Shown: positions 13,968-54,905 of the stretch, piece by piece
Layout: each line of letters starts with the position of its first letter
Position numbering within the stretch: the stretch's first letter is position 1
The notes under the pieces: model-generated
Databases searched by the model: none
What the model was told of the DNA's origin: nothing
Seen by the model: only the letters and a program-made list of their open reading frames with translations
Translations under genes and position numbers: made by a program
NCBI RefSeq assembly: GCF_025854275.1
Contig: NZ_CP107567.1
Span: 1,426,001 to 1,490,000, forward strand
From: Streptomyces peucetius
Lineage (GTDB): Bacteria; Actinomycetota; Actinomycetes; Streptomycetales; Streptomycetaceae
DNA length: 64,000 bases
Reading direction: 5' to 3'

Positions 13968-14245
13968 GGCCCCCTCCGGTGACTCAAGTCCGCTCAGGGT
14001 AGTGGAGGGCGAATCGCACGGGGTGTGAAAGTAGTGCGCTTTTCTGCGGCTTGTGTGCTCTGCCCGGGGCCGGGGCGGGGGCTGTTGACTTAACTGCCTC
14101 TCCCTGGGAGGCGGCCGGGCCGCCGGCTCCCCCTCGTACAGTGCGGCGGCCCTGATCGCGCCGTTCGTCCTGCTGATCTGCCCGACACTCCGCGGCAGGG
14201 CGGACGGCGCGCGTGCCGTGGCGCCTGCGGCGGACTTGCCCCCAC

Positions 14246-14339
14246 CCCGCTGTACCGATGTGCGGCTCCGCCGCGTGGCGGGGCAAGCCCCGGACCCGTA
14301 CCGCGCTTCGCGCGATGACCTCAAACTCTCCCTACGGCC
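14246..14339 (+). repeat. Dispersed intergenic repeat, copy 1 (partner at 48355-48448)
   Basis: These 94 bp match 48355-48448 in the same orientation at 87 of 94 positions by hand alignment. The element contains the hairpin GCGGCTCCGCCGC and a GGGGCAAGCCCC stem. It lies in the gap upstream of the TPR regulator and encodes nothing convincing. Confidence 0.8.
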
Positions 14340-14440: not shown

Positions 14441-14551
14441 CTTCAGCCTCGCCGGCGTTTGAGGCGCGGGTCCGGGGCGGAGCCCCGACAGGACCGGCGC
14501 ACTCCAGCCCCGCCGGCGACTGAGGCGCCGGGCTCGGGGCGGAGCCTCCGA
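14441..14551 (+). repeat. Two tandem copies of a Streptomyces-type intergenic element
   Basis: Units 14441-14489 and 14502-14551 share CAGCC(T/C)CGCCGGCG.(T/C)TGAGGCG and GGGGCGGAGCC. They resemble an element I know from many Streptomyces intergenic regions. Each ends in a potential hairpin (GGGGCGGAGCCCC). Non-coding. Confidence 0.65.
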
Positions 14552-22317: not shown

Positions 22318-22620
22318 GGATCCTCCTAAGTAGCACCACGCGGATGTCTGGCAGACAGCCGCGCATTGTCTGTTTGAACAGACCAACCGCGCCGGGACGT
22401 CAAAAATGCCCCGGACGGGACACAGGCGGCAGCTCCTTGAACCGGAGCACCGCCGCGGTCGACCGCGGGGCGCACATCGGGCGACTCCATCGTCCGTACG
22501 GAACGATGGTGGCCGCCTGACCGGTGACCCGCCGTCCCGCAGGACGGCCAGGTGGGAGATCGGAGCCTCCACTTGTGGGCTGGTCACTTACATGTCCAGC
22601 CGGTCGTCACACAAGGTTAG
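22318..22620 (-). promoter_or_regulatory. Long structured leader of infC
   Basis: About 300 bp upstream of infC holds no convincing gene. It contains strong hairpins on the minus strand: CCATCGTTCCG-TA-CGGACGATGG near 22489-22511, CCGTCC-TGC-GGGACGG near 22531-22546, and a CCGGGGC/GTCCCGG pair around a T-run near 22395-22418. An in-frame extension of infC is open through the leader but has no family similarity. An untranslated leader with attenuation or autoregulation is the simplest reading. Confidence 0.5.
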
Positions 22621-42426: not shown

Positions 42427-45051
42427 CTACCGCGGTGCGATCTCGTCCGCGATGCCCGGGTTCTGCTCCATCCAGGCCTTGACGGCCTCCTCCTCGTGTC
42501 CCGTGCCGTACTTCTGGATCTCGTTCTCCAGTCCGGCGAGCTGCTTCTCGTCGAGCTTGAAGTCCTTGAACCACTTCGTGAGCTGCGGGTACTGCCGGGG
42601 GAAGTTCTTGGAGGCGACGGTGTGGATCTCGTCGCCCCCGCCGAAGGACTTCTTCGGGTCGGCGAGCTTGGTCAGCTCGTACTCGCTGTAGGCCCAGTGC
42701 GGGGTCCACAGCATGACCGCGATCGGCTCCTTCTTGGCGTACGAGCGCTTCAGCTCCGCGAGCATGCCCGGGGTTGAGCTGTCGACGACCTCGAACTCGC
42801 CCTCGAGACCGTAGTCCGGCAGGACCTTGTTCTTGAGGATGTTCATGGTCTCGGTGCCGGGCTCGATGCCGACGATGCGGCCCTTGAACTCGTCGCCGCG
42901 GCCCTTGAGGTCGGCCAGGGAGTCGACCCCGTCGACGTACGAGGGCACTGCGAGTTCCAGGGACGTGGGCCCGTACCAGGCGCCGAGGTCGGTGAGCCGG
43001 TCACCGTACTTGTCCCAGTACTTCTTCTGCGTGATCGGCAGCCAGCCGTCGAACTGCACGTCGATCTGGCCGCGGGAGAGCGCGGTGTACATCGGGCCGA
43101 CCTCGAACTGCTTGAGGTTCATCGTGTAGCCGCGCTCCTCGAGGACCGCCTTCCACAGGTAGGTGGCGGCGATGTCCTCCTCCCACGGGAACCAGGCGAC
43201 GTTCAGGGGACGGTCGCGCTCGTCCTTGCCGCCCTTGCCCGCCGTGCCGCTCCGGTCCACCGGAGCCCACTTGCCGGCGAGGTCCGGGTTCTCCTTCAGC
43301 CAGGCGCGGACGGCTTCCTGCTCCTTGCCCTTGCCCGTCTCCTGGATCTTCGCCTCGAGACCGGTGAGCTGCTCCTCGGTCATCTTGAAGTCGTTCAGCC
43401 ACTTGCCGACCTGGGGGAACTCCTCGGAGAAGCCCTTGCGCGCGAGGGTGTGCACACCGTCGCCCTTGCCCCAGGAGCCCTTGGGATCCTTGAGCTTCTT
43501 CAGGTCGTAGGTGCTGTACGCCCAGTGCGGCGACCACAGGGTGGTGACGATGGGCTCCTTCTTGTCGTACGCGCGCTTCAGCTCGGCCAGCATGCCGGGC
43601 GTGGAGCCGTCGACGACCTTGTACTCGCCCTCGAGGCCGTAGTCCTTCAGGACCTTGTCCTTGAGGATGCCCATCATCCCGGCGCTCGGCTCGATGCCGA
43701 TGATCCGGCCGTCGAACTCCTCCGACCTGCCCTTGAGGTCCTCGAGGGAGTCGACGCCCTTCATGTAGGCGGGGACGGACAGCTCGAGCGAGGTGGGGCC
43801 GTACCAGGAGCCCAGGTCCTCGAGCTTGTCCTGGTACTTCTCCATGTACGAGGCGTGGGTGACCGGCAGCCAGGCGTCGGTCTGGAAGTCGATCTGCCCG
43901 CCTGCGAGTCCGGTGTAGAGCGAACCGGCCTCCAGCTGCTTGGTGTCGACCTCGAAGCCGCGCTGCTCCAGCAGCTCCTTCCACAGGAAGGTGGAGGCGA
44001 TGCCCTCGTCCCACGGGATGTAGCCGATGGAGACCTTCTTGCCGTCCCCGATCCTCGACGCGTCCGCGGCGGTGTCCGACCTGTCGCCGCCGAACATGTT
44101 CATGCCGCCTGCCACGAGGGCGAGGACGACGATGCCGACGACCGCGACGGCGGGCTGCGGGCGGTGGTCCCAGATCTTCAGCCCGCCGGCCATGGCACGC
44201 GCCTTGGCGAGCGCGCGGCGGCCGAGCGGCGAGACCTGGCGGCCCAGCGCACCGGTCATCCGGTCGAGGTACATGGCGAGGATGACGATCGAGACGCCGG
44301 CCTCGAAACCGAGGCCGATGTCGACGTTGCCGATGGCCCGGTAGACGGCGCCGCCGAGGCCACCGCCGCCGACCATGCCGGCGATGACGACCATGGACAG
44401 GCCCAGCATGATGACCTGGTTGATACCGGCCATGATCGTCGGCAGGGCGAGCGGGAGCTGCACCCGGATCAGTGTGTTGCGCGGGGTGGTGCCGAAGGCC
44501 TCCGCGGCCTCGACGAGCTCCTCGTCGACCTGCCGGATACCGAGTTCGGTCATCCGTACGCCGGGCGGCAGGGCGAAGATGATCGTGGCGATGATGCCGG
44601 GGACCACGCCGACGCCGAAGAAGATGATGCCGGGGATCAGATAGACCATCGCGGGCATCGTCTGCATGAAGTCGAGCACCGGCCGGACGATCGTGCTGAC
44701 CGTCTTCGACCGCGAGGCCCAGATGCCGAGCGGAACGGCGATCGCGAGCGTCACGAGGGTGGCGACGAGCACCAGCGAAAGGGTCGACATGGCGTCGTCC
44801 CACAGTTCGACGGCGTCGATCAGCGCGAAGCCCGCGAAGGCGAGGACACCGGCGAGCAGCCCGCGCAGCCACCACGCGACGACCGCGAGGATGCCGGCGA
44901 AGAGCAGCGGCGCCGGCGCGGAGAGCGCCGCGTCGATGGCGTCGTACATTCCGGTGACGAGCGAGCTGATCGCGTCGAACAGCCAGGACAGATGGCGCTG
45001 GAGCCAGTCGACACCGCTGTCGACCCAGTCGCCGAGGGGGAGCCTAGGCAC
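42427..45051 (-). CDS. ABC importer permease fused to two tandem OpuAC-type substrate-binding domains (glycine betaine/proline type)
   Basis: An 874-residue fusion. Residues 1-305 are a ProW-like permease with five or six helices and the EAA loop around EELVEAAEAFGTTPRNTLIR. A further helix (PAVAVVGIVVLALVAGGMNM) anchors the extracellular part. Two homologous OpuAC domains follow at about 340-600 and 620-870; both contain WYGPTSLEL and ELKR(A/S)Y(D/A)KKEPI and are clearly duplicates. No lipoprotein is needed, since the receptors are tethered. Likely import of a quaternary amine osmoprotectant. GTG start overlaps the ATPase gene by eight bases. Confidence 0.95.
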   Translation of the reverse strand: MPRLPLGDWVDSGVDWLQRHLSWLFDAISSLVTGMYDAIDAALSAPAPLLFAGILAVVAWWLRGLLAGVLAFAGFALIDAVELWDDAMSTLSLVLVATLVTLAIAVPLGIWASRSKTVSTIVRPVLDFMQTMPAMVYLIPGIIFFGVGVVPGIIATIIFALPPGVRMTELGIRQVDEELVEAAEAFGTTPRNTLIRVQLPLALPTIMAGINQVIMLGLSMVVIAGMVGGGGLGGAVYRAIGNVDIGLGFEAGVSIVILAMYLDRMTGALGRQVSPLGRRALAKARAMAGGLKIWDHRPQPAVAVVGIVVLALVAGGMNMFGGDRSDTAADASRIGDGKKVSIGYIPWDEGIASTFLWKELLEQRGFEVDTKQLEAGSLYTGLAGGQIDFQTDAWLPVTHASYMEKYQDKLEDLGSWYGPTSLELSVPAYMKGVDSLEDLKGRSEEFDGRIIGIEPSAGMMGILKDKVLKDYGLEGEYKVVDGSTPGMLAELKRAYDKKEPIVTTLWSPHWAYSTYDLKKLKDPKGSWGKGDGVHTLARKGFSEEFPQVGKWLNDFKMTEEQLTGLEAKIQETGKGKEQEAVRAWLKENPDLAGKWAPVDRSGTAGKGGKDERDRPLNVAWFPWEEDIAATYLWKAVLEERGYTMNLKQFEVGPMYTALSRGQIDVQFDGWLPITQKKYWDKYGDRLTDLGAWYGPTSLELAVPSYVDGVDSLADLKGRGDEFKGRIVGIEPGTETMNILKNKVLPDYGLEGEFEVVDSSTPGMLAELKRSYAKKEPIAVMLWTPHWAYSEYELTKLADPKKSFGGGDEIHTVASKNFPRQYPQLTKWFKDFKLDEKQLAGLENEIQKYGTGHEEEAVKAWMEQNPGIADEIAPR

Positions 45052-47446: not shown

Positions 47447-48301
47447 GTGGCAGATCGAGCGGAACGACCGGCCCGCACGTCCCCGAAGGTCCACGAGGCG
47501 CAGGTGGTGCGCACCGAGCGGCTCACCCCGCACATGGTGCGGGTGGTGCTCGGGGGTGACGGGCTGGCCGCGTTCGACCTCGGCGGTTACACCGACCACT
47601 ACGTCAAGCTGGTCTTCCCCGCCGAGGGCGTCACGTACCCGGAGCCGTTCGACATGGACCGGATCCGCGAGGAGCTGCCACGCGACCAGTGGCCCGCGAA
47701 CCGGACCTACACGGTGCGGACCTGGGACGCCGCCCACCGCGAGCTGACCGTCGACTTCGTCGTCCACGGCGACGAGGGCCTCGCCGGCCCGTGGGCGGCC
47801 CGGGCCCGCGTCGGCGACACGATGCGGCTCCTCGGGCCCGGCGGTGGTTACGCCCCCTCCCCGGAGGCGGACTGGCACCTGCTGGCCGGCGACGAGAGCG
47901 CGCTGCCGGCGATCGCGGCGGCGATGGAACACATGCCGCCGGGCGCCGTCGTCCACGCCTTCGTGGAGGTCTCGGGCCCCGACGACGAGCAGAAGAGCGT
48001 CACTCCGGACGGCGCGGAGATCACCTGGCTCCACCGCGGCGACCGCCCGGTCGGCGAGGCACTCGTCGAGGCGGTGACGGCGCTGGACTTCCCTGAGGGG
48101 ACGGTGTGCGCGTTCGTCCACGGCGAGGCGGCCTGCGTGAAGGAACTGCGCCGCCTGCTGCGTGTGGAACGCCAGATCCCCAAGGAGCAGCTCTCGATCT
48201 CGGGCTACTGGCGGCTGGGCAAGACGGACGAGGCGTGGCGCGCGGTGAAGCGGGAGTGGAACGAGCAGGTGGAGCGCGAGCAGGAGGGCGGCGCGGCGTG
48301 A
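47447..48301 (+). CDS. Siderophore-interacting protein (FAD-dependent ferric-siderophore reductase)
   Basis: A 284-residue cytosolic flavoprotein of the ViuB family. FAD-binding is marked by ANRTYTVRTWDAAHRELTVD and HGDEGLAGPWAARARVGD. The NAD(P)H-binding half starts at DWHLLAGDESALPAIAAAME and ends with QLSISGYWRLGKTDEAW. It strips iron from imported siderophores by reduction. The GTG start lies 25 bp downstream of an iron box. GGGAG precedes it. No siderophore transporter or synthesis gene is next to it. It is the last conserved gene before the 48.3-52 kb insertion. Confidence 0.94.
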   Translation: MADRAERPARTSPKVHEAQVVRTERLTPHMVRVVLGGDGLAAFDLGGYTDHYVKLVFPAEGVTYPEPFDMDRIREELPRDQWPANRTYTVRTWDAAHRELTVDFVVHGDEGLAGPWAARARVGDTMRLLGPGGGYAPSPEADWHLLAGDESALPAIAAAMEHMPPGAVVHAFVEVSGPDDEQKSVTPDGAEITWLHRGDRPVGEALVEAVTALDFPEGTVCAFVHGEAACVKELRRLLRVERQIPKEQLSISGYWRLGKTDEAWRAVKREWNEQVEREQEGGAA

Positions 48302-48354
48302 CGCGGTGACAGTGCGGGCCCGCATGCGCGGGGCCGTTCCCCTACCCGCCCCTT

Positions 48355-48448
48355 CCCGCTGTACCGATGTGCGGCTCCGCCGCGTGGCGGGGCAAGCCCC
48401 GGCCCCGTACCACGCTTCGCGCGGTGGCCTCGATCTCCCCCTACGGCC
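48355..48448 (+). repeat. Dispersed intergenic repeat, copy 2
   Basis: Matches 14246-14339 at 87 of 94 positions in the same orientation. The similarity continues weakly to about 48497 (CCCGCAGCCGGGCTG). It opens the 439-bp non-coding stretch between the siderophore reductase and glpF. Confidence 0.8.
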
Positions 48449-48500
48449 TGGCGGCAGTGGCAGTGCCCGCAGCCGGGCTGCTGTGCAGCCCCAGCCCGAA

Positions 48501-48587
48501 GTCGAGGCACTGGAGCGGATGCGCATCCCCGAGTCCTTCGACCCCCGCTCCTCAAAAGGCGTTCGGTTCGTCGACGTCCTCGACGCA
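48501..48587. repeat. Mosaic of inverted fragments of the helicase and SnoaL genes
   Basis: Bases 48501-48550 match the reverse complement of 52828-52877, inside the helicase gene, at 47 of 50 positions and read VEALERMRIPESFDPRS on the plus strand. Bases 48556-48587 match the reverse complement of 51816-51847, the SnoaL 3' end, at 30 of 32 and read CVEDVDEPNAF-stop on the minus strand. The two pieces keep the convergent order they have at 51.8-52.9 kb but with about 950 bp deleted between them. Confidence 0.85.
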
Positions 48588-48629
48588 ACACGCTGCACGT
48601 CCTCCACCGAGCGAACGTCCTCCCGCGCC
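48588..48629 (+). repeat. Left copy of a 42-bp perfect direct repeat bounding the glpF-glpK insertion
   Basis: Begins ACACGCTGCACGTCCTCCAC and is identical over 42 bp to 51872-51913 in the same orientation. It directly abuts the inverted SnoaL-tail fragment. About 3.2 kb lie between the copies. Confidence 0.9.
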
Positions 48630-48740
48630 AGCCGGCGGACCCGGACAGCCGCACCAAAGATGCCGTCCGCGCCCGCGCAGGAGAGCATTGCCGGTGCGCG
48701 GCCACAGTCGGCCCGACCAACCGGGCGAGAGGTGCAGAAC

Positions 48741-49571
48741 ATGCCGGAACCCACGTCCAGAACACGTTTCATCGGTGAACTCTCTGCCGAGTTCGCAGGC
48801 ACCATGATCCTCATTCTCTTCGGGTGCGGTGTCGTCGCACAGGTCGTCGCCGGTGGTGCGCTGACCGACGGGGCACTGGGTGACCACGACAGCATCGCCT
48901 GGGGCTGGGGTCTGGGCGTCGTTTTCGGCGTTTATGTGGCGGCGCGGGTCAGCGGCGCCCACATCAATCCCGCGGTCACCCTCGCGCTCGCGGCTTTCAA
49001 AGGCTTCCCATGGCGCAAGGTCCTGCCGTACGCCCTGGCACAGACGGCGGGCGCTTTCGTGGCCGCCCTGCTGGTGCGCTGGAACTACAGCGAGGTGCTG
49101 GCGCGGGCCGACCCCGGCCACACCGACAAGACGGAGATCGTCTTCTCCACCTTGCCGGGCAACGGCGTTCTCCCGATCAGCCAGTTCGGGGCCTTCCGTG
49201 ACCAGATCATCGGCACCGCCCTGCTGGTGCTGCTGATCTTCGCGGTCACCGATCTGCTCAACACACCGCCGCGCGCGAATCTAGCCCCCTTCATCATCGG
49301 CCTGATCGTCGTCGTCATCGGCATGGCCTGGGGGACCAACGCCGGCTACGCGATCAACCCGGCCCGTGACCTCGGGCCCCGGCTGGCGGCGTTCCTGACG
49401 GGCTACGGAGGCGCTTGGCGTGATCAGTACGGCGACCTCTACTTCTGGGTGCCGATCGCCGGCCCCCTGATCGGTGGTCTGGTCGGTGCACTGTTCTACC
49501 GCCTGCTGATCAGCCGCTTCCTGCCCGTCGCCGAGCAGGAGCCCGGCCGGGTGCCCGCGCCGGACCAGTAA
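48741..49571 (+). CDS. glpF: Glycerol facilitator / aquaglyceroporin
   Basis: A 276-residue MIP-family channel with six helices and the two half-helix NPA boxes ([16 protein letters not shown] at about 74 and [18 protein letters not shown] at about 205). The aspartate after the second NPA (NPARD) is the glycerol-facilitator mark that separates it from water-only channels. The protein admits glycerol for the adjacent kinase. GAGAGGTG precedes the ATG by seven bases. It is 23 bp upstream of glpK. A CTA leucine codon near 49281 is rare for this genome. Confidence 0.95.
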
Positions 49572-49594
49572 ACCGGACGAGTGAGAGGCCAGCC

Positions 49595-51109
49595 ATGCCC
49601 GAGTTCGTCGGTGCGGTGGACCAAGGCACCACCAGCACCCGTTTTATGATCTTCGACCACGACGGCAACGAGGTCGCACGCCACCAGCTCGAACACGAGC
49701 AGATCTTCCCGCGCTCCGGCTGGGTCGAACACGACCCCGTGGAGATCTGGGAACGCACGAACTCCACAATGCAGAACGCCATCCGCCAAGGCGCCCTGTC
49801 CGCCGCCGACCTGGCGGCCATAGGGATCACCAACCAGCGGGAGACCACGGTCATCTGGGATCCCAGCACCGGTCAGCCGCACTACAACGCGATCGTCTGG
49901 CAGGACACCCGCACCGACTCCATAGCCGCGGCACTGGAGCGCGAACACGGGGACCTCATCCGGCGCAAGACAGGGCTGCCCCCGGCGACGTACTTCTCCG
50001 GCGGGAAGATCAAGTGGATCCTGGAGAACGTCGACGGTGTCCGGGAGGCCGCCGAGAACGGCCGGGCCGTCTTCGGCAACACGGACGCCTGGGTCCTGTG
50101 GAACCTCACCGGCGGTCCGAACGGCGGCATCCACGCCACGGACGTCACCAACGCCAGCCGTACCATGCTGATGAACCTCCAGACCCTCGACTGGGACGAC
50201 GAACTGCTCGACGTCTTCGGCATCCCACGCGCCATGCTCCCGGCCATCAATCCGTCCTCGCACCCGGAGGCGTTCGGGACCACCCGCACCACCCGTCCGC
50301 TGCGCACCGCCGTACCCATCACGGGCGTCCTCGGGGACCAGCAGGCGGCCACGGTCGGCCAGGTCTGCTTCCGCCCGGGCGAGGCCAAGAACACCTACGG
50401 CACCGGAAACTTCCTGGTCCTCAACACGGGCACGGAGATCGTCCGCTCCAGCAGTGGCCTGCTGACGACGCTGGCCTACCAGTTCGGGGACGCTCCGGCG
50501 GTGTACGCCCTGGAGGGATCCATCGCCGTCACCGGCTCCGCCGTCCAGTGGCTCCGCGACCAGATGCACATCATCAGCTCCTCTTCTGAGGTGGAGGCCC
50601 TGGCCAAGCAGGCGCAGGACAGCGGCGGCATCTACTTCGTACCGGCCTTCTCCGGCCTGTTCGCTCCATACTGGCGCTCCGATGCCCGGGGCGCGATCGT
50701 CGGCCTCGCTCGCTTCCACACCAACGCGCATCTGGCCAGGGCGACCCTGGAAGCCATCTGTTACCAGAGCCGCGACGTAGCCGAAGCGATGGCGCAGGAC
50801 TCGGGCGTCGCACTCGACGTGCTGCGGGTCGACGGCGGCGTCACCGCCAACGACCTGTGCATGCAGATCCAGGCCGATGTCCTCGGCGTACCGGTCAGCC
50901 GCCCGGTCGTGGCCGAGACCACCGCGCTCGGCGCCGCCTACGCGGCGGGGCTTGCAACCGGCTTCTGGGAGAACACCGACGAGCTCCGCTCGCACTGGCA
51001 CGAGTCGAAGCGGTGGGAGCCGCAGTGGAGCGAGGAGGAGCGGGAGAAGGGCTACGCGGGCTGGAAGAAGGCCGTGCAACGCAGTCTCGACTGGGTCGAG
51101 GTCGAATAG
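49595..51109 (+). CDS. glpK: Glycerol kinase
   Basis: A 504-residue FGGY kinase that phosphorylates glycerol to glycerol-3-phosphate. [20 protein letters not shown] is the ATP-site start, [16 protein letters not shown] and [13 protein letters not shown] bind glycerol, and [14 protein letters not shown] and [19 protein letters not shown] close the second domain. Complete by length. Two ATA isoleucine codons (near 49821 and 49921) are unusual for Streptomyces. No gylR regulator or glpD gene accompanies it, so this is probably an extra glpFK set rather than the main glycerol operon. Confidence 0.96.
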
Positions 51110-51160
51110 CCGGGACGGCGAGCGCCTGTGTGTTCGCCCCGGGCCTGCACTGCCTCAGCC

Positions 51161-51418
51161 CACCACACGAAAACGGTCCACCGACTCGAGGAGGCCCTCG
51201 CTGCGGCCGTCGACCTCGGCGGCGACACCGACACGGTGGCCGCCGTGACGGGCGCGCTCGCGGGCGCCGTGTACGGCATCGACGCGGTGCCCGCGCGGTG
51301 GACGGCACCGCTGCATGTGCCGCTGCCGGGGTTCGGCGACCGGGTGCTGCGCCTCGCGGAGCTCACCGATCTGGCCGTGGCACTGCGCCGTGGACAGTGC
51401 TTCCGCCCCGGCGGATGA
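51161..51418 (+). pseudogene. 3' remnant of an ADP-ribosylglycohydrolase gene
   Basis: The frame reads HTKTVHRLEEALAAAVDLGG DTDTVAAVTGALAGAVYGID and on to WTAPLHVPLPGFGD. The GGDTDTVAAVTGALAGA segment is the C-terminal metal-binding signature of DraG-like hydrolases. The remaining 80 or so codons are only the end of a family that needs about 300, and no start fits. The upstream 50 bp after glpK show no matching sequence. I read it as a truncated remnant left by recombination. Confidence 0.75.
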
Positions 51419-51461
51419 TGGAGCCAAAAGGGAAATTCACGGACGAAAGGCATGGATCACC

Positions 51462-51857
51462 ATGTCCGAACACCCTGACTGCGCCCTGGTCCGCCGGGGC
51501 TACACGGCATTCGTCGCGGGTGACATGGACACCCTCGGTGAGCTGTTCACCGCCGACGCCGTCTTCCACGTCCCTGGTGATCACATCCTCTCCGGGCACC
51601 ACAAGGGACGGGAAGCGATCATGGGCCTCTTCCGCCGCATCGGCGAGGAGACCGCCGGCACGATGCAGATCCAGATCGAGACGATCCTGGCCGATGGGCG
51701 CGGGCACGTCATGTCGTTCCACACCACGCGCGCGGACCGCGGCGACCGCGGTCTCGAGATGCGTGAAGGCCTGTTCTTCTCCATCGCGGGCGGGAAGATC
51801 ACCGACATCGACGAGTGCGTCGAGGACATCGACGAACTGAACGCCTTCTGGAGGTGA
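51462..51857 (+). CDS. SnoaL-like / NTF2-fold protein
   Basis: A 131-residue soluble protein: DCALVRRGYTAFVAGDMDTL, FTADAVFHVPGDHILSGHHK, then MREGLFFSIAGGKITDIDEC. This is the ketosteroid-isomerase/SnoaL alpha-beta barrel. Function unknown; relatives bind small hydrophobic ligands or isomerise ketones. AAAGG lies upstream of the ATG. The last 32 bp before its stop recur inverted at 48556-48587, so the 3' end took part in the rearrangement around glpF-glpK. Confidence 0.85.
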   Translation: MSEHPDCALVRRGYTAFVAGDMDTLGELFTADAVFHVPGDHILSGHHKGREAIMGLFRRIGEETAGTMQIQIETILADGRGHVMSFHTTRADRGDRGLEMREGLFFSIAGGKITDIDECVEDIDELNAFWR

Positions 51858-51871
51858 GGGACGACCGGGCG

Positions 51872-51913
51872 ACACGCTGCACGTCCTCCACCGAGCGAAC
51901 GTCCTCCCGCGCC
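51872..51913 (+). repeat. Right copy of the 42-bp perfect direct repeat
   Basis: Identical to 48588-48629. It begins 15 bp after the SnoaL stop codon and ends 68 bp before the helicase stop. Confidence 0.9.
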
Positions 51914-51950
51914 TGACCGACCGGGCCCCGGCCGCATGGACCGGGACCCG

Positions 51951-51989
51951 GTGATCGTCAGCCGACGGGAGCCGTGATCGTCAGCCGAC
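51951..51989. repeat. 16-bp direct duplication at the helicase 3' end
   Basis: GTGATCGTCAGCCGAC occurs at 51951-51966 and 51974-51989, seven bp apart. The second copy contains the helicase stop codon. It looks like a duplicated junction at the right edge of the insertion. Confidence 0.7.
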
Positions 51990-54809
51990 CGAGCTGTACG
52001 CCACCACGCCCCGCAGCAGCGAGTCGACCGCCTTGCGGGCGTTTTTCGCGACGGTGCTGTTCTCCCGGGGCGCGGCCGCGGCGATCTGGCCGAGCACGTC
52101 GATGACCTGCTTGCACCAGCGCACGAAGTCGCCCGCGGGCATCCCCGCCTCGCGCAGCACCGCGTCGAGCCCCTTGTCGGAGGCCCATTCGTACGCGGCC
52201 CAGGCGAAACCGAGGTCCGGCTCCCGCTGTCCGACGCCCTCCGCCTGGTTGATCCTGAACTCCTCCTCCAAGGCGTCCAGCCGGCCCCAGATGCGGACCA
52301 TCTCGCCCAGCGCGGCCTTCGCCTTCCCGGCGGGCACCTTGGGCGGCAGCGCGTCGTCCGACTGCCGCGCCTCGTACACCAACGCCGACACGCACGCGGC
52401 CAGTTCCGCAGGGCTCAGCCCCTCCCAGACCCGCTCGCGCAGGCACTCGCTGGCCAGCAGGTCCAGTTCGCCGTAGAGCCTGGCGAGGCGCTTGCCGTCC
52501 TCGGTGACCTCGTTGCCGCGGAGGTAGTCCATCTCCGTCAGCAGGGCGACGATCCGGTCGAAGGTCCGCGCGATGGTGTTCGTACGGCCCTCGATGCGGC
52601 GCTCCAGCTGCCGGGTGTCCCGCTGCAGCCGGTGGTAGCGCTCCGCCCAGCGGGCGTGGTCCTCGCGCTCGTCGCAGCCGTGGCAGGGGTGGGCCCGCAG
52701 TTCGGCGCGGAGCCTGGTGATCTCACGGTCGTCCGCCGCGGGGGACCGGCCCTTGCGGTGCCGCTCGGGCGCGATGTGCCCCGCCTTGGTGCGCAGCGCC
52801 GACGCGAGATCCCGACGCGACTGCGGTGAGCGGGGGTTGAAGGACTTGGGGATGCGCATCCGCTCCAGCGCCTCGACCGGCACCGGGAAGTCGATCGACG
52901 CCAGCCGCTTGACCTGACGCTCCGCGGTGAGCACCAGCGGGCGCGGCCCGTCGTGGTACTCGAAGCCTCGGTGGCCGCCCGTCCGCCCGGCGGGCAGTCC
53001 GGGATCGAGGACCAGCGCCAGACCGGCGAACTTGCCCGTCGGCACATGGATCACGTCGCCCTGCTTCAGCCGTTCCAGCGACGCGGCGGCGGCCGCGCGG
53101 CGCTGCGCGGCGCCCTGCTTGGCGAGTTCGGTCTCGCGGTCCTTGAGGTCGCGGCGCAGCCGCGCGTACTCCTCGAAGTCGCCGAGGTGGCAGGTCATGC
53201 CCTCGCGGTACCCCTGGAGGCCCTCCTCGTTGCGCTGCACCTGGCGGGAGATGCCCACCACCGACTTGTCGGCCTGGAACTGCGCGAACGACGTCTCCAG
53301 CAGCTCGCGCGAGCGGTGCCGGCCGAACTGCTGCACCAGATTGACCGCCATGTTGTACGACGGCTTGAAGCTGGAGCGCAGCGGGTAGGTCCGTGTGCCG
53401 GCGAGTCCGGCGAGCGCGCCCGGGTCCATGGCCCGCTGCCACAGGACCACCGCGTGGCCCTCGACGTCGATGCCTCGGCGCCCGGCGCGACCCGTCAACT
53501 GGGTGTACTCGCCGGGGGTGATGTCGGCGTGCTGCTCGCCGTTCCACTTGACGAGCTTCTCCAGCACCACGGAACGGGCGGGCATGTTGATGCCGAGCGC
53601 CAGCGTTTCCGTCGCGAACACGGCCTTCACCAGGCCGCGTACGAACAGTTCCTCGACGACCTCCTTGAAGGTCGGCAGCATGCCGGCGTGGTGGGCGGCG
53701 ATGCCCCGCTCCAGACCTTCCAGCCACTCGTAGTAGCCGAGGACATGGAGGTCCTCCCCTGGGATGGAGGCGGTCCGCTCCTCGACGATCTCGCGCACCT
53801 TCGTGCGCGCCTCCTCGTCGTTGAGCCGCAGACCCGCGTAGAGGCACTGCTGCACGGCGGCCTCGCAGGCCGCGCGGCTGAAGATGAACGTGATCGCGGG
53901 CAGCAGACCCTCGGCGTCGAGCCGGTCGATGACCTCGGGCCGGCCGGGTGTCCAGATGCGGCTGCGCTGTCGCCGCTCGCGCTCCCGGTCCGCCTCCCGG
54001 ACCATCTTGCCGCGGCGGCGGTCGCGCGGGTTGTACGCGCGGCTGCTCTCCATCCGGGCCAGCCGTACGAGATCGGGGTTGACCTCGCGGCGGGCGACAC
54101 CGCGGCCGCCGTGGTCGCTCTCCTCCTCGAAGAGGTCGTACATCCGCCGCCCGGCCATGACGTGCTGCCACAGCGGGACGGGACGGTGCTCGGAGACGAT
54201 GACCTCGGTGTCGCCGCGGACGGTGTCGAGCCAGTCGCCGAACTCCTCCGCGTTCGACACGGTCGCCGAGAGTGACACCAGTGTCACCGACTCGGGGAGA
54301 TGGATGATCACTTCCTCCCACACCGCGCCCCGGAAGCGGTCGGAGAGGTAGTGCACCTCGTCCATGACGACATAGCCGAGACCCGTCAGCGCCTGGGAAC
54401 CCGCGTACAGCATGTTGCGCAGCACCTCGGTCGTCATGACGACCACCGGCGCGCCGGCGTTGACGCTGTTGTCACCGGTCAGCAGGCCGACCTTCGCGGA
54501 GCCGTACCGCTTGACCAGGTCGGTGTACTTCTGGTTCGAGAGGGCCTTGATGGGCGTGGTGTAGAAGCACTTGCGGCCCTGCTCGAGGGCGAGATGCACG
54601 GCGAACTCGCCGACGATGGTCTTGCCCGAACCGGTGGGCGCGGCGACGAGCACGCCTTTGCCCGCCTCCAGGGCCTGGCATGCCTCGATCTGGAAGGGAT
54701 CGAGATCGAAGTCGTACATCGCGCGGAAGGGGGCCAGCGCGGTGGCCTCCTCGGCGGCGCGGACGCGGGCGGCGGCATAGCGCTCTGCGGGAGAGAGATC
54801 CTCGGTCAT
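51981..54809 (-). CDS. helY: DEAD/DEAH-box superfamily-II helicase (HelY/Mtr4-like)
   Basis: A 942-residue cytosolic Ski2/Mtr4-like RNA helicase. FDLDPFQIEACQALEAGKGV (Q-motif region), Walker A AAPTGSGKTIVGEFAV, DEVHYLSDRFRG box II, SATVSNAEEFGDWL motif III, and TGRAGRRGIDVEG motif VI are intact. The C-terminal DSHCT-type domain carries ECLRERVWEGLSPAELAACV. CHGCDEREDH suggests a metal-bound insertion. The ATG at 54809 fits the family start MTEDLSPAERYAAAR; a GTG at 54818 has a better SD. A 50-bp internal segment is copied inverted near glpF. Confidence 0.94.
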   Translation of the reverse strand: MTEDLSPAERYAAARVRAAEEATALAPFRAMYDFDLDPFQIEACQALEAGKGVLVAAPTGSGKTIVGEFAVHLALEQGRKCFYTTPIKALSNQKYTDLVKRYGSAKVGLLTGDNSVNAGAPVVVMTTEVLRNMLYAGSQALTGLGYVVMDEVHYLSDRFRGAVWEEVIIHLPESVTLVSLSATVSNAEEFGDWLDTVRGDTEVIVSEHRPVPLWQHVMAGRRMYDLFEEESDHGGRGVARREVNPDLVRLARMESSRAYNPRDRRRGKMVREADRERERRQRSRIWTPGRPEVIDRLDAEGLLPAITFIFSRAACEAAVQQCLYAGLRLNDEEARTKVREIVEERTASIPGEDLHVLGYYEWLEGLERGIAAHHAGMLPTFKEVVEELFVRGLVKAVFATETLALGINMPARSVVLEKLVKWNGEQHADITPGEYTQLTGRAGRRGIDVEGHAVVLWQRAMDPGALAGLAGTRTYPLRSSFKPSYNMAVNLVQQFGRHRSRELLETSFAQFQADKSVVGISRQVQRNEEGLQGYREGMTCHLGDFEEYARLRRDLKDRETELAKQGAAQRRAAAAASLERLKQGDVIHVPTGKFAGLALVLDPGLPAGRTGGHRGFEYHDGPRPLVLTAERQVKRLASIDFPVPVEALERMRIPKSFNPRSPQSRRDLASALRTKAGHIAPERHRKGRSPAADDREITRLRAELRAHPCHGCDEREDHARWAERYHRLQRDTRQLERRIEGRTNTIARTFDRIVALLTEMDYLRGNEVTEDGKRLARLYGELDLLASECLRERVWEGLSPAELAACVSALVYEARQSDDALPPKVPAGKAKAALGEMVRIWGRLDALEEEFRINQAEGVGQREPDLGFAWAAYEWASDKGLDAVLREAGMPAGDFVRWCKQVIDVLGQIAAAAPRENSTVAKNARKAVDSLLRGVVAYSSVG

Positions 54810-54905
54810 CTTGTTCACGAGCCTACCCGCCGCCTCTGACAGTCAGTCGATCTTTAATCGGACGAGAGCATCCACCGCCGGGAGTACCCCGGGGGATCGT
54901 GCCGA

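Follow-up and report, generated by a model that had tools for sequence, protein, structure and literature searches.

The locus analysed here lies in Streptomyces peucetius, within a 64-kb window that covers positions 1,426,001-1,490,000 of the 8.05-Mb single-contig chromosome; coordinates below are those of the window unless stated otherwise. Between a siderophore-interacting reductase gene and a DSHCT helicase gene, the locus carries glpF, glpK, a remnant of an ADP-ribosylglycohydrolase (ADPRH) gene, and a SnoaL-like gene. This gene order had been proposed in a sequence-only reading of the same DNA and was confirmed in this study by domain matches. The subject of the analysis is how the glycerol genes came to lie there, and in particular the 129-nt stretch at their left edge (48501-48629), which is tiled by three copies of sequence from the right flank, two inverted and one direct. 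The features are as follows.

47447-48301 (+): siderophore-interacting reductase
48314-48498 (no strand assigned): copy of a dispersed intergenic repeat, the right part of which ends abruptly where the patchwork starts
48501-48550 (-): patch C', inverted copy of the helicase-internal sequence 52828-52877, 47/50 (94%)
48544-48587 (-): patch A', inverted copy of the SnoaL 3' end (51816-51860), 87% over 45 gapped columns
48585-48629 (+): patch B, direct copy of the SnoaL-helicase spacer 51869-51913, 44/45 (98%); contains the perfect 42-bp repeat
48640-51128 (+): accessory segment of glpF, glpK, and a leader of about 100 bp; 93, 92, and 91% identical to genomes G174, G129, and G196
48741-49571 (+): glpF, MIP-family glycerol facilitator (PF00230; TIGR00861)
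49595-51109 (+): glpK, FGGY glycerol kinase (PF00370, PF02782; TIGR01311 above cut-off)
51129-51185 (no strand assigned): 57-bp filler at the right junction
51186-51437 (+): C-terminal remnant of ADPRH (PF03747, positions 248-287 of 287)
51462-51857 (+): SnoaL-like gene (PF12680), native; its 3' end is the putative template of A'
51869-51913 (+): partner of patch B in the SnoaL-helicase spacer
51951-51966 and 51974-51989 (no strand assigned): exact 16-bp duplication over the helicase 3' end
51981-54818 (-): DSHCT helicase
52828-52877 (-): partner of patch C' inside the helicase gene

All three partners of the patches are found within 1.06 kb of the right flank (51816-52877). The direct piece, B, contains the perfect 42-bp direct repeats described in the sequence-only reading, which are indeed exact (48588-48629 and 51872-51913, spaced 3,284 bp) and extend to 44 of 45 positions over 48585-48629 and 51869-51913. 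Beyond what that reading had seen, the left edge also holds the inverted helicase-internal copy (48501-48550) and the inverted copy of the SnoaL 3' end (48544-48587), the latter matching without gaps at 32 of 35 positions (91%) over 48553-48587. In the gapped alignments, C' and A' overlap by 7 nt (imperfectly) and A' and B by 3 nt. At the ends of the glpF-glpK segment, 10 bp on the left and 57 bp on the right are unassigned.

Such an arrangement is not expected by chance. The three pieces scored 77.9, 77.9, and 51.8 bits, and 1000 dinucleotide-preserving shuffles of 48501-48629 reached at most 38.3 bits when compared with the flanks. When natural 129-nt tiles were compared with their neighbourhood, 17 of 404 scored above 45 bits with a neighbour; 12 of these fall in a single internally duplicated gene (42508-43927), one is at 14515, and four are the tract and its partners. 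The duplicated gene contains a direct repeat of 742 bp that is 75% identical (42449-44018) within an open reading frame at 42427-45051 (-), which by eye resembles a transporter fusion with a doubled domain. Filtering left 14 short near-repeat pairs in 91 sequences (1,811,701 bases). Unlike copies were chained only at this locus and in L051, where they form a tandem array, and no other non-tandem chain was found. We also compared 52 reductase-helicase intervals, including that of the window, with their own flanks, and three exceeded 55 bits (the window, L095, and L094), the highest reversed-sequence control reaching 47.3. Neither of the other two was accepted as a second example. The inverted copies of L094 lie beside a run of N and are probably an assembly artefact, and in L095 the 3' end of the reductase gene is duplicated in tandem (L095:10753-11249, 256 bp, 94%). 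L023 and L232, whose contigs are equally long (72,159) and which are counted below as one genome, were both kept in these two scans.

The best match to the patchwork among 391 other genomes was to the helicase piece, with 92% identity over 51 nt. A' agrees with the SnoaL tails of S. xantholiticus (L021) and G129 at 83% over the same 35 nt, and the exact 42-mer was found, among all loci fetched, only in loci of this place. With the helicase piece at 94% versus at most 92% and the SnoaL tail at 91% versus 83%, the templates of the patches were probably those of the genome itself.

The state of the locus before these changes can be approached through its relatives. Reductase loci were collected from named genomes, and 45 of the 80 include both the reductase and the helicase, with a gap between the two of 101 to 9,256 bp. 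In S. xantholiticus, the closest relative compared, the gap is about 9.3 kb, of which about 8.3 kb is absent from S. peucetius, with about 2.8 kb in its place. The gap of S. xantholiticus contains genes for an extracytoplasmic function (ECF) sigma factor, an RskA-type anti-sigma factor, a DUF1295 protein, cyclopropane synthases, an amine oxidase, a 323-aa ADPRH, and SnoaL, together with what we take to be a DUF1365 protein. No orthologue of the 8.3-kb block was found in the S. peucetius genome, the best matches being a 66% stretch at 3.13 Mb and an 84-base piece. What extends in S. peucetius from the dispersed repeat to the last quarter of ADPRH consists of the 129-nt patchwork, the 2.49-kb glpF-glpK segment, and the 57-bp filler. 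Only the 3' end of ADPRH is kept, its very end being out of frame relative to S. xantholiticus, and its homology starts at 51186 in the alignments to both L021 and L229.

Nine other genomes have SnoaL next to the helicase (L021, L022, L023, which equals L232, L229, L230, L231, L233, L234, and L235). These nine do not amount to a census: 95 of 392 genomes matched the SnoaL search, and the seven with a SnoaL match beside a helicase match were fetched. ADPRH is matched in one piece over at least 313 of 323 residues directly before SnoaL in L021, L023, L229, and L231; it is in pieces in L230, about 0.8 kb off in L233, and absent in L022, L234, and L235. L021, L233, and L234 retain all or nearly all of the sigma/RskA block, L022 and L230 a part of it, and L235 a part at a distant position; L229, L231, and L023 lack it. 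Judging from this distribution, the interval loses the sigma/RskA/cyclopropane-synthase block repeatedly. Because SnoaL adjoins the helicase in nine genomes and a near-complete ADPRH stands beside it in four, both are, on the evidence of their placement, residents of the old neighbourhood, and only glpF-glpK is accessory. Arrival of ADPRH and SnoaL together with glpF-glpK was considered and rejected on account of their conserved place next to the helicase.

The sequence-only reading had taken the whole 3.7 kb for an inserted block, which does not hold for the part containing ADPRH and SnoaL. Its view of the region as made by recombination is supported, and the region is variable. As a sign of insertion it had named a clean reductase-helicase junction in relatives; short gaps are present in L038 (101 bp) and L026 (180 bp), but the comparison with S. 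xantholiticus shows a replacement. A glpF-glpK-SnoaL block conserved at this site, which that reading had named as evidence against an insertion, was not seen, and the 87 other loci compared contain neither a GlpF nor a GlpK match at E 1e-8. The 16-bp duplication that it had reported on the right is exact. This duplication sits beyond the native SnoaL gene, and L023/L232 has its own, different short duplication at the same place.

The dispersed repeat at the left edge, which the sequence-only reading had assigned to the inserted block, is real and occurs genome-wide. It was rejected as part of the insertion and is older, because S. xantholiticus has its left half at the corresponding position (aligned up to 48426). 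At least 94 matches to 48302-48740 were found in the S. peucetius genome, with 40 of 239 first-look candidates scored; four of these are the locus itself and the three local pieces, and 90 fall inside positions 1-191 of the query. Three of the four best alignments of the repeat stop at 48480, and the one against L020 runs to 48498. The repeat is modular and G+C-rich, with about 90 partial matches in the genome and a further copy in the window at 14240-14339. No published name for the family was found in the literature at title level.

The glpF-glpK pair was searched for across the genus in 392 genomes, of which 67 were left unscored, with one stretch scored per genome. The best matches to 48640-51126/51128 are G174 (93%), G129 (92%), and G196 (91%). 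At least 49 of 324 other scored genomes show, among the matches listed, one continuous match of at least 78% over nearly all of both genes, and apart from the S. peucetius locus itself none of the listed matches runs on into SnoaL. The surroundings differ: the pair lies beside a zinc alcohol dehydrogenase gene in G174 and G129 and between insertion-sequence copies in G196. In the latter genome (L167:5764-12592), two inverted copies of 893 nt, 99% identical and encoding a DDE transposase, flank glpF-glpK in a composite-transposon-like arrangement. The G196 pair is thus the same gene pair, 91% identical, but bracketed by inverted insertion sequences, none of which is seen in the window. Four plasmid records matched the pair, the best at about 80%, and pairs of about 80% identity are present on two Streptomyces plasmids. 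A near-identical plasmid source is therefore not supported.

In its own genome, the accessory pair is a single copy of its kind. About 33 kb away lies a gylR-glpFKD-like operon, the GlpK of which is 57% identical to the accessory GlpK. The accessory MIP and GlpK domains are intact, and the pair is separate from this canonical operon; it draws on the same enzyme families to take up and phosphorylate glycerol but has neither a regulator nor glpD beside it. The synonymous divergence (dS) of glpF and glpK is 0.20-0.22 against G174 and 0.26-0.29 against G129, whereas that of the reductase, exonuclease, and helicase genes is 0.33-0.44 against the same genomes, and that of SnoaL is 0.81 and 0.34. The ratio of nonsynonymous to synonymous divergence (dN/dS) of glpK is 0.05-0.10. 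These values suggest exchange between lineages and a maintained function, although codon bias could also lower dS.

The seven window proteins scanned (smaller open reading frames were not scanned) include no transposase or integrase, in agreement with the sequence-only reading. Furthermore, no tRNA family matched within the 64-kb window, and no inverted arms at the ends of the accessory segment were present among the 25 longest of 69 repeat pairs. The only Rfam match above the gathering score in the window is Scr1601, a Streptomyces small RNA family, at 22401-22608 (-).

Streptomyces break repair offers a precedent. In the study by Hoff et al. 2018 (PMC5869714), I-SceI breaks in S. ambofaciens were healed with deletions, and half of the scars had microhomologies of 1-6 nt. 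Some scars had gained DNA, either 42 or 83 bp that originated close to the break or 30 bp of a transposase gene, and insertions of up to 18.8 kb were obtained in other strains, while strains without kuA or ligC/D gave one or no such clone (PMC5869714). From five laboratory insertions, the same authors speculated that nonhomologous end joining (NHEJ) may help the integration of incoming DNA in Streptomyces (PMC5869714). The S. peucetius locus resembles those scars in combining a deletion with short pieces from near the break and, perhaps, with short microhomologies. It differs from them in that three pieces are chained in mixed orientation beside a multigene segment, and in that it is natural, old, and diverged by 2-13%. 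The S. peucetius genome has two Ku genes (PF02735) and three ATP-dependent ligase matches (PF01068); near 5.37 Mb, a Ku gene and a ligase match are separated by about 1 kb.

Chained templated insertions and microhomology-mediated break-induced replication (MMBIR) have been described in eukaryotes. The likeness to these processes is that several local copies would have been joined by template switching; the difference is that the present case concerns a bacterium. A title-level search of the literature brought up no bacterial chain of templated insertions, and the hits were mostly eukaryotic.

Since the locus shares the anatomy of the S. ambofaciens scars, we suggest that it is a natural repair scar coupled to the capture of glpF-glpK. 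The explanation that we favour, with a probability of roughly 0.6, is that one or more double-strand breaks were repaired illegitimately, in an NHEJ-like manner assisted by microhomology, so that the earlier block was replaced and the mobile pair captured. In the course of events that we infer, from the break and the order of the steps to the polymerase, the source of the pair, and its expression, a broken end would have been extended by copying local templates, with switching at microhomologies, and then joined to the glpF-glpK segment, in one event or several. Because the broken end would have copied local templates, the 42-bp direct repeat would be one of the copied pieces, a by-product rather than a site for the recombination or excision of an element. 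The pair may have come from a wandering pool, represented by the other chromosomal sites, the plasmids, and the insertion-sequence-flanked pair of G196, either from outside or from an arm of the same chromosome. It would be expressed from the leader that it carries, providing a second dose of glycerol uptake and kinase beside the canonical gylR-glpFKD operon. The narrower proposal, that this is a natural bacterial chained templated insertion in which a broken end, switching repeatedly among local templates that all lie within 1.1 kb, took up a mobile metabolic pair, is a tentative one, to which we give somewhat less than even odds.

Several observations weigh against the repair scheme. The C'/A' overlap is imperfect, and the ungapped A' begins 2 nt after the end of C'. 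C' is barely nearer to the S. peucetius helicase (94%) than to some others (92%), and B may have been copied in either direction, given that the SnoaL-helicase spacer differs among the relatives compared. The filler at 51129-51185 has no source, with no match in the genome better than E 0.17. A comparable chain is absent from the 51 other reductase-helicase intervals, and no strain in an intermediate state was found among the relatives compared. Finally, B may be younger than C' and A', which leaves more than one event possible. This last point leads to an account in which an old deletion-repair left C' and A' and glpF-glpK arrived later, the direct repeat B being formed at that time. C' and A' (ungapped) differ from their partners at 6 of 85 positions and B at 1 of 45. 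A neutral model that lets both copies of B change, but of C' and A' only the side in the patchwork, gives P = 0.013; the sigma/RskA block has also been lost independently, without glpF-glpK, in L229, L231, and L023. However, the difference in divergence is not significant by Fisher's test (p = 0.42), and the patches abut without a gap. We consider separate events possible but rather unlikely.

The source of the pair raises a further question, that is, whether glpF-glpK formerly lay on the left arm of the same chromosome and moved from there. The flanks of the 10.1-kb glpF-glpK segment of G174 (L165:4388-14529) are directly joined, without the pair, at about 336.18 kb (L180) in the S. peucetius genome. 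However, these flanks are 84-88% identical versus 93% for glpF-glpK, and the other surroundings in G129 and G196 mean that G174 may simply have gained the pair. We therefore regard such a movement as doubtful; it concerns the source of the pair and is compatible with break repair. Mobilisation by an insertion sequence or integrase, in which the pair came on a transposon or island that later lost its mobility genes and left the 42-bp repeats as remains of its ends, would fit the transposase-flanked pair of G196 and the pairs on plasmids. It is nevertheless improbable, given that the seven proteins scanned include no transposase or integrase and that no tRNA family matched in the window. The boundaries at 48640 and 51128 are without element ends, the B repeat stops 10 bp short of the segment on the left but on the right lies about 0.74 kb past it, behind the native SnoaL gene, and the other two local copies are left unexplained. 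Similar objections apply to an excisable module that is regularly lost through the 42-bp repeats, taking glpF-glpK, ADPRH, and SnoaL with it, as the perfect direct repeats 3,284 bp apart could be taken to indicate. The edge that carries this repeat holds two other local copies as well, recombination would also remove a native gene, no recombinase was found, and, among the loci fetched, the exact 42 bp recur only in those of this place. This is the least credible of the explanations, with hardly any probability left to it.

Break repair with capture of the pair thus remains our preferred explanation, and under it the locus would be a natural scar with the anatomy of NHEJ repair, bordering genes that were acquired and seem to be maintained. 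Where an accessory segment lacks mobility genes, a chain of local copies along its edge would then be a readable signature, which can be searched for in other chromosomes. If the narrower proposal of a chained templated insertion is true, functional accessory genes entered a Streptomyces chromosome through mutagenic break repair, with no mobility gene involved.

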